Positions 23,793-25,446 of a stretch of 32,546 nucleotides of DNA are shown in pieces (position 1 is the stretch's first letter; every line of letters starts with the position of its first letter). Source of the DNA: Nitrospira sp. (GTDB lineage Bacteria > Nitrospirota > Nitrospiria > Nitrospirales > Nitrospiraceae); NCBI GenBank assembly GCA_023248215.1, contig JAHFEW010000049.1, forward strand, positions 1-32,546, written 5' to 3'. Made by a program: the position numbers and the translations under genes. The notes below the pieces were generated by a model, which searched no databases, had not been told where the DNA came from, and saw only the letters and a list, made by a program, of their open reading frames with translations.

Positions 23793-23847
23793 GAGAAAGA
23801 GGTCAGGGCATCACACCATGACCGCCTGGGATACGACGGAGGCTACG

Positions 23848-24060
23848 ATGGTGAAGTCAGAGAAAACGGAACAGAACCCGGAAGGGAAACGAGAGGAGAC
23901 ACCGCCGTTCGAAGAGCCCAGCCATTGTCTTCTCTGCGGACGGGTGGGGCCGGCGCTGTTGTATGGCCACTGGGTTTGTGAGCATTGCAAGAACGTCGTG
24001 CAGGCAGAAGCGCTGTCCAAAAAGCGCAAGATCGAGAAGGAAGGCGGTGGGCCGCCTTAG
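23848..24060 (+). CDS. Small zinc-ribbon-like protein
   Basis: A 70-residue protein. ATG 23848 is supported by GGAGG at 23838-23842, five bases upstream; ATG 23818 lacks a well-placed site. It has a charged N-terminus, then CLLCGRVGPALLYGHWVCEHC, a C-x2-C...C-x2-C pair with 14 residues between the inner cysteines, as in a zinc ribbon or treble clef. The tail is Lys/Glu-rich (KKRKIEKEGGG). I cannot name a family. It sits 55 bases after rtcB in the same direction and could be an RNA- or protein-binding accessory of the repair genes; that is inference. Confidence 0.75.
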   Translation: MVKSEKTEQNPEGKREETPPFEEPSHCLLCGRVGPALLYGHWVCEHCKNVVQAEALSKKRKIEKEGGGPP

Positions 24061-24087
24061 GCTTGGTTGTCGCCGAATACCGTTCGG

Positions 24088-25182
24088 ATGGGCTCCTCTC
24101 ATTTCATGCACAGCACGAGTCTCACAGCAGCGGTCCCGCCCGGACGGGGAAGCTGTTCGCTCCCGGTCGGCAAGGTCCCGGTCACATTGCTGCGCAGCAT
24201 GCTGGCCCGCTATGCCAGAAACCGCGACCCGCGCGTGGTCGTGGGTGCCGGGATCGGTCTTGATGCTGCGGCTCTCGACGTGGGTGGCGAGTATGTGATT
24301 GTCAAAACAGATCCCATCACCTTCGTGACGGAGGAGATCGGCGCGTACGCGCTCGCCATCAATGCCAACGATCTTGCCACGATGGGTGTCCTGCCTTGCT
24401 GGTTCTTGGCTACGATTTTGCTGCCGGCCGGGACGACCACGAGAGCGGGCGTATCCCGTATCTTTTCGCAGATCGGAAGGGCTTGCCGCAGATTAAAGAT
24501 CTCACTGTGTGGTGGTCATACGGAGGTGACCGCCGCTGTGACTCGACCCGTGGTCGTCGGCTGCCTTCTGGGACAATGCCCCAAAAACCGACTGATCACC
24601 ACAGCAGGGGCCCGTATGGGAGACGCCCTGTTGCTCACGAAAGGCATCCCCATCGAAGCCGTGTCGATCCTGGCGCGTGAGAAGAGCGAAGAGCTCCGGC
24701 AACGCTACTCGGCGCGATTCGTGGCCCGGTGCCGACGGTATTTTACAGACCCCGGCGTGAGCATCGTCCGTGACGCCGCCATTGCCCTGGCAGTCGGCGG
24801 AGTGCATGCGATGCATGATCCGACAGAAGGCGGCCTGAGCGCGGCCCTCTATGAGCTCGCCGAGGCGGCACAGGTTGGAGTACAGGTTGACGAACGGGCG
24901 ATCCCCATTCTGCCTGAGGGACGCCGACTCTGCGACGACTTGGGTATGAATCCCCTCGGGGCCATTGCGTCAGGTGCCCTGATCATCTGTGCGGACCCAA
25001 GCCGGGCGCAGGCGATCCTCCGGCGTTTAACCAGATCAGGGATTGCAGCGGCACGCATCGGCACCATTGTTCCGGCTCGGAAGGGAGTTACCATCGTAAC
25101 TGATGGGAGACGGGTCGGCCCGGTTCCCCGCTTCCCCGTGGATGAAATGGCACGTGTGCTGAATCCTTCTTTCAAACCATAG
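24088..25182 (+). CDS. AIR-synthase-related protein (HypE/PurM/ThiL superfamily)
   Basis: About 364 residues from ATG 24088 (TTG 24067 and ATG 24106 are other options). It has the two-domain AIR synthase layout. The ATP-binding N-domain has VVVGAGIGLDAAALDVG, VKTDPITFVTEEIGAYAL and INANDLATMGVLPCWFLATILLP. The C-domain has GDALLLTKGIPIEAVSILA, AMHDPTEGGLSAALYEL and NPLGAIASGALII. These are HypE-like motifs. The C-terminal Cys that HypE uses to carry the cyano group (usual ending PRIC) is missing; this protein ends LNPSFKP, like the archaeal 'HypE-like' group. No hydrogenase genes are nearby. It probably phosphorylates or cyclises another substrate with ATP, possibly linked to the RNA-repair genes. 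Confidence 0.88.
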   Translation: MGSSHFMHSTSLTAAVPPGRGSCSLPVGKVPVTLLRSMLARYARNRDPRVVVGAGIGLDAAALDVGGEYVIVKTDPITFVTEEIGAYALAINANDLATMGVLPCWFLATILLPAGTTTRAGVSRIFSQIGRACRRLKISLCGGHTEVTAAVTRPVVVGCLLGQCPKNRLITTAGARMGDALLLTKGIPIEAVSILAREKSEELRQRYSARFVARCRRYFTDPGVSIVRDAAIALAVGGVHAMHDPTEGGLSAALYELAEAAQVGVQVDERAIPILPEGRRLCDDLGMNPLGAIASGALIICADPSRAQAILRRLTRSGIAAARIGTIVPARKGVTIVTDGRRVGPVPRFPVDEMARVLNPSFKP

Positions 25183-25236
25183 CTCTAACCACTTAGAGAG
25201 GACAAAACGTCACCAAGCGCACGAAGGAGGTGCACC

Positions 25237-25446
25237 CTGACTACTACAGTAGCCCCGCTCACTCATGACGAACTTAAAGCTGCCGAAGCCGCGTTCCGTG
25301 CTCTCCCTCTGGACCCCAGGTGGTCACGTAACGCCCAGCAGATCTATCTCAGGATTCTGGCGGTGACCAATGGTCGGGGCATTGTCACGGACATGGAGAT
25401 CCCAACCCTGGCTGTCGGCGCCGAACTCGGATCACAAGTCAAATAG
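25237..25446 (+). CDS. Small protein with apparent CTG start codon
   Basis: A 69-residue frame with clearly protein-like sequence: an N-terminus of TTTVAPLTHDELKAAEAAFRA, then PLDPRWSRNAQQIYLRILAV and TDMEIPTLAVGAEL. AAGGAGG at 25224-25230 sits six bases before CTG 25237. No ATG, GTG or TTG lies in frame between the upstream in-frame stop (25186-25188) and that point, and the first in-frame ATG is far inside. CTG is therefore the best start, read as Met. I do not recognise a family. It follows the AIR-synthase-like gene by 54 bases. A single-base error or mutation turning ATG into CTG would give the same picture. Confidence 0.6.
   Translation: MTTTVAPLTHDELKAAEAAFRALPLDPRWSRNAQQIYLRILAVTNGRGIVTDMEIPTLAVGAELGSQVK

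Follow-up and report, generated by a model that had tools for sequence, protein, structure and literature searches.

The reading frame described here is probably a functional small-protein gene whose start codon mutated to CTG before its lineage parted from that of the syntenic sister copy in genome G152. It lies in the window, the whole stretch of 32,546 nucleotides that was analysed, which comes from a metagenome assembly (Table 1). The gene truly belongs to an uncatalogued family of small proteins of the Nitrospirales, the order of nitrite-oxidising and comammox Nitrospira, and carries the DExKAAEAAF motif of that family. Comparison of sequences suggests that its CTG most plausibly serves as a start codon that works, probably weakly, with help from the strongest Shine-Dalgarno sequence of 22 relatives.

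Table 1. Features at and around the CTG-started gene (window coordinates)
Feature	Position	Strand	Basis
AIR-synthase-fold gene (PurM/HypE/SelD/ThiL-like), the final gene conserved in the archease-rtcB-zinc-ribbon unit	24067..25182	+	
Shine-Dalgarno sequence AAGGAGGTG (9 nt able to pair with the usual 16S 3' tail; 4 nt between its end and the CTG)	25224..25232	+	
CTG start codon	25237..25239	+	aligned with ATG/GTG/TTG of relatives; CTG also in the broken syntenic G152 copy
Small gene, 69 codons, stop TAG 25444-25446	25237..25446	+	translation, homologues
Conserved core L8-Y37 (LTHDExKAAEAAFRxLPLDPxWSxxAQxIY)	25258..25347	+	two alignments
Predicted two-helix hairpin, residues 10-20 and 31-44	25264..25368	+	structure prediction

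The initial annotation had described a CTG-led frame of 69 residues six bases 3' of AAGGAGG, and position and translation agree with this: AAGGAGG occupies 25,224-25,230 and is followed by TGCACC and then by the CTG at 25,237. The absence of any upstream in-frame ATG, GTG or TTG, also claimed there, holds across the 16 open codons that precede the CTG (PLREDKTSPSARRRCT). So does the expectation that gene finders limited to these three starts would miss the gene, the best alternative start being an internal GTG at 25,363 that opens 27 codons without the conserved core; ordinary gene finders probably miss the gene because its start has changed to the rare CTG. An open frame of 85 codons is weak evidence when taken alone and is raised above chance by the existence of homologues. 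AAGGAGG occurs 11 times on the two strands of the window and the 9-mer AAGGAGGTG once, before the CTG gene, the pairing partner being taken to be the usual bacterial 16S 3' tail. The codon usage of the gene is gene-like: its log-likelihood per codon is -4.03, where Markov shuffles give -4.28 +/- 0.09 (0.14% of them do as well) and the neighbouring genes -3.88 +/- 0.09, which puts it near the bottom of the range of real genes.

Homologues were identified in 160 of the 175 genomes of the window genome's family, and with them fell the earlier doubt that the frame might prove to have no homologue and random-like codon usage. When 295 genomes of the phylum were searched with a profile, 95 matched, all from the same order (95 of 98 Nitrospirales, three listed genomes of the order being without a match); the 197 genomes sampled outside it gave none. 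In a scan of 84,980 named species nearly all of the 80 best loci carry a Nitrospira, Nitrospirales or Nitrospirota label. One family member (L135) is found on a contig labelled Nitrospinota, which may be a misbinned Nitrospirales contig. The family alignment shows D11, E12, K14, A15, E17, A18, A19 and Y37 to be invariant and L8, A16, F20, P24, W29 and A33 to be nearly so, and the window copy keeps every one of these residues, with the DExKAAEAAF core motif complete. Several paralogues per genome are possible, and the window genome holds three others with common starts. Searches of Pfam, NCBIfam and PHROGs gave no match to the window protein, and none of the short relatives tried in Pfam rose above the cut-off. 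A phage or plasmid gene was considered and rejected, as neither the phage nor the plasmid collection holds a match to the window protein.

The window protein is short and stands alone, ending soon after the second helix with no continuation downstream. In this it differs from long Nitrospirales proteins of 220-280 residues, whose N-terminal 40 residues are homologous to it and which carry a DUF6573-like C-terminal part (PF20213); the window protein has no DUF6573 domain, nor does one lie downstream. Such long proteins, with the core joined to the DUF6573-like part, were observed across the Nitrospirales, as at L050 (4390-5085) and L051 (5190-5879). The suggestion that the frame is the inside of a longer, frameshifted gene was rejected, given that nothing downstream is homologous to the C-terminal part of these long proteins. 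The structure of the window protein is predicted with block mean pLDDT values of 94-96 for residues 11-40, with an overall value of 78.5 and a tail of low confidence. Comparison with solved structures in the PDB, by sequence and by fold, returned nothing significant. On the basis of size and fold alone, the protein is probably a small binding or adaptor module.

How the homologues start had been put forward as the check on the gene, and they were found to have ATG, GTG or TTG at the position of the CTG, and CTG in G152. The nearest relatives use TTG (G110, G112), GTG (G062, G036) or ATG (G049 and other genus copies), and the leader GAGGTGCACC that precedes the window CTG also precedes the starts of several genus copies. 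A common start stands ahead of the core in 97 of 99 distinct copies, the only exceptions being the window copy and its G152 sister, both of which have CTG at the start position; in the window the CUG occupies the homologues' start position with no common start in frame. It might be argued that the true start lies elsewhere, either at the internal GTG (25,363) or at an out-of-frame GTG at 25,230 that overlaps the Shine-Dalgarno sequence and is followed by a frameshift, these being the nearest common starts. This is extremely improbable for three reasons: first, the internal GTG would lose the whole conserved core; second, the GTG at 25,230 has no Shine-Dalgarno spacing and needs the frameshift; and third, the relatives' starts align with the CTG. 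A sequencing error in the start codon is likewise unlikely because the same CTG is present in G152, which is a separate assembly.

The pairing energy of the window Shine-Dalgarno sequence, -16.1 kcal/mol, is the strongest of the 22 copies compared, and the mean is -13.0 in non-ATG copies as against -10.4 in ATG copies (one-sided p 0.014), a difference that is indicative only, the sequences being related. The amount of structure in the start region of the window gene is unremarkable (z +1.1). Across prokaryotes at large, weak starts are coupled with stronger Shine-Dalgarno sequences (PMC5622118). A switch from ATG to CUG is exceedingly uncommon (2 of 61,358), with four switches to CUG reported among about 69,000 starts (PMC5622118), and in E. 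coli CUG is a poor initiator, its first position pairing poorly with the initiator anticodon and its initiation complexes being less stable (PMC11497404). Given this poor initiation and the rarity of such switches, the prior possibility of a gene in the course of losing its start has to be taken seriously.

The syntenic sister copy in G152 (REEB81) has nearly the same Shine-Dalgarno sequence and the same CTG, and contains two frameshifts and a change of the near-invariant Trp29 to Gly. This raises the possibility that the window gene is itself dying, the CTG being a start loss with negligible translation, the frame still intact for want of time and G152 showing the next stage; the CTG common to both copies, the three paralogues with common starts that remain in the genome and the poor initiation at CUG would all be in keeping with it. 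Against this, the window copy retains all conserved residues, sits on a short branch and shows slow nonsynonymous change. Relative to intact relatives its dN/dS is 0.17-0.27, a range that spans time before the CTG arose as well, and the changes fall mostly at third codon positions. Since the split, the window copy has accumulated 2 nonsynonymous and 3 synonymous changes and the G152 copy 6 and 0 (Fisher p 0.06), and the end branches of the tree measure 0.049 and 0.16, respectively. The AIR-synthase gene differs between the two genomes by a dS of 0.30. In a neutral simulation that placed half of this dS on the window branch and counted as intact a gene with no stop, indel or core change, the window gene stayed intact with a probability of about 0.001, rising to 0.01 and 0.11 at shorter branches of 0.10 and 0.05; two premises underlie these figures, a CTG already in place when the lineages divided and a neutral rate given by the AIR-synthase dS. 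Decay of the window gene is on balance unlikely. The simplest history is that the CTG arose before the two lineages parted and that the G152 copy then decayed, whereas the window copy did not. Given its complete set of conserved residues, its slow evolution and its low probability of neutral survival, the CTG is read as a working start, and we hold with moderate confidence that the window copy is functional.

The CTG gene and the AIR-synthase gene share a strand, the former lying 54 nt 3' of the latter, and because no promoter or terminator was found between them on that strand, read-through is plausible. The initial annotation had seen in it a missing partner of the prs-rtcB system, a role in which it would be conserved alongside the prs-archease-rtcB-AIR-synthase unit and take part in RNA ligation or repair. 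Strand, distance and the lack of an intervening promoter or terminator speak for such a role, but the comparison of loci makes it very improbable. The prs, archease, rtcB, zinc-ribbon and AIR-synthase genes occur together again in G152, where the copy is broken; in G153, the third syntenic cluster, all of the unit except prs was found, and no copy of the family stands beside it. Nor does a copy adjoin any of 14 other AIR-synthase gene loci, including a second one in the window genome, and most family copies lie elsewhere, near MazG-like, dapAB, transporter or other genes. In short, the gene is not conserved with the unit in related genomes and is not a standard part of the rtcB cluster, and the proposal of a missing partner is not supported. 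Three further observations concern the unit itself. The AIR-synthase gene is patchy, being present in 16 of 172 family genomes, and its protein matched the models for HypE, ThiL and SelD, in each case below the cut-off. Between rtcB and this gene, the window (23,818-24,060) encodes a zinc-ribbon-like protein of 80 residues with four cysteines (CLLC...CEHC), which is conserved in G152, G153 and G008. In G153 the gene 3' of the AIR-synthase gene encodes a P-loop ATPase, Mrp/ApbC-like as named from its sequence.

The usual genus copy adjoins a MazG-like gene and lies behind a conserved small ORF of 59 residues. These copies (e.g. L038, 6163-6321, in G032) belong to the same family, with about 50-65% identity to the window copy, and resemble it in length and leader; they differ in having an ATG or GTG start, another locus and the 59-residue ORF upstream. 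At the window genome's own MazG-side site the MazG-like gene and the small ORF are both present, but a family copy is not: about 125 bases (L195, reverse complement, 510-635) stand where G032 has 303 including the gene (L038, 6070-6373). The ORF, termed REFMK (MQKQIERPIRRTE...WPLSAREFMKLPVSGLL), was observed at L195, 2869-3045 (G000 contig 73), and at L038, 6375-6551. It is present in 23 of 29 genus genomes and directly upstream of the genus copy in 12; an obligatory functional linkage with the family was rejected because 10 of the 23 have no close family copy. The window copy may stand in for the missing MazG-side copy, and in the family tree (126 columns), where support is weak, it fits both as an acquired gene and as an old paralogue. 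A bolder version, offered tentatively and held to be rather unlikely, is that selection keeps the CUG start weak so that a small, lineage-specific regulator is made at a low dose, the strong Shine-Dalgarno sequence being tuned against this start and the window copy replacing the missing genus-locus copy in trans.

Returning to the preferred reading of a functional gene with a mutated start, we infer that initiation at the CUG by fMet-tRNA would be weak, as expected for this codon, and probably offset by the strong Shine-Dalgarno sequence AAGGAGGTG and a start region without unusual structure. Expression of the gene would be low and would most likely arise by read-through from the upstream AIR-synthase gene. 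Its product, from a Nitrospirales-specific family, would fold as a hairpin of two helices and probably serve as a small binding or adaptor module. The gene offers a worked case, with comparative evidence, of a CTG-started bacterial gene, a class left out by pipelines that accept ATG, GTG and TTG only. The family to which it belongs is near universal in the Nitrospirales, is absent from Pfam, NCBIfam and PHROGs and is open to genetic tests. Compared with the rare bacterial genes known to start at CUG (PMC5622118), the window gene shows the same change from a common start with the remainder of the gene intact and the same pairing of a weak start with a strong Shine-Dalgarno sequence; it differs from them in being short, in belonging to an uncatalogued family and in having a sister copy that shares the CTG but is broken.
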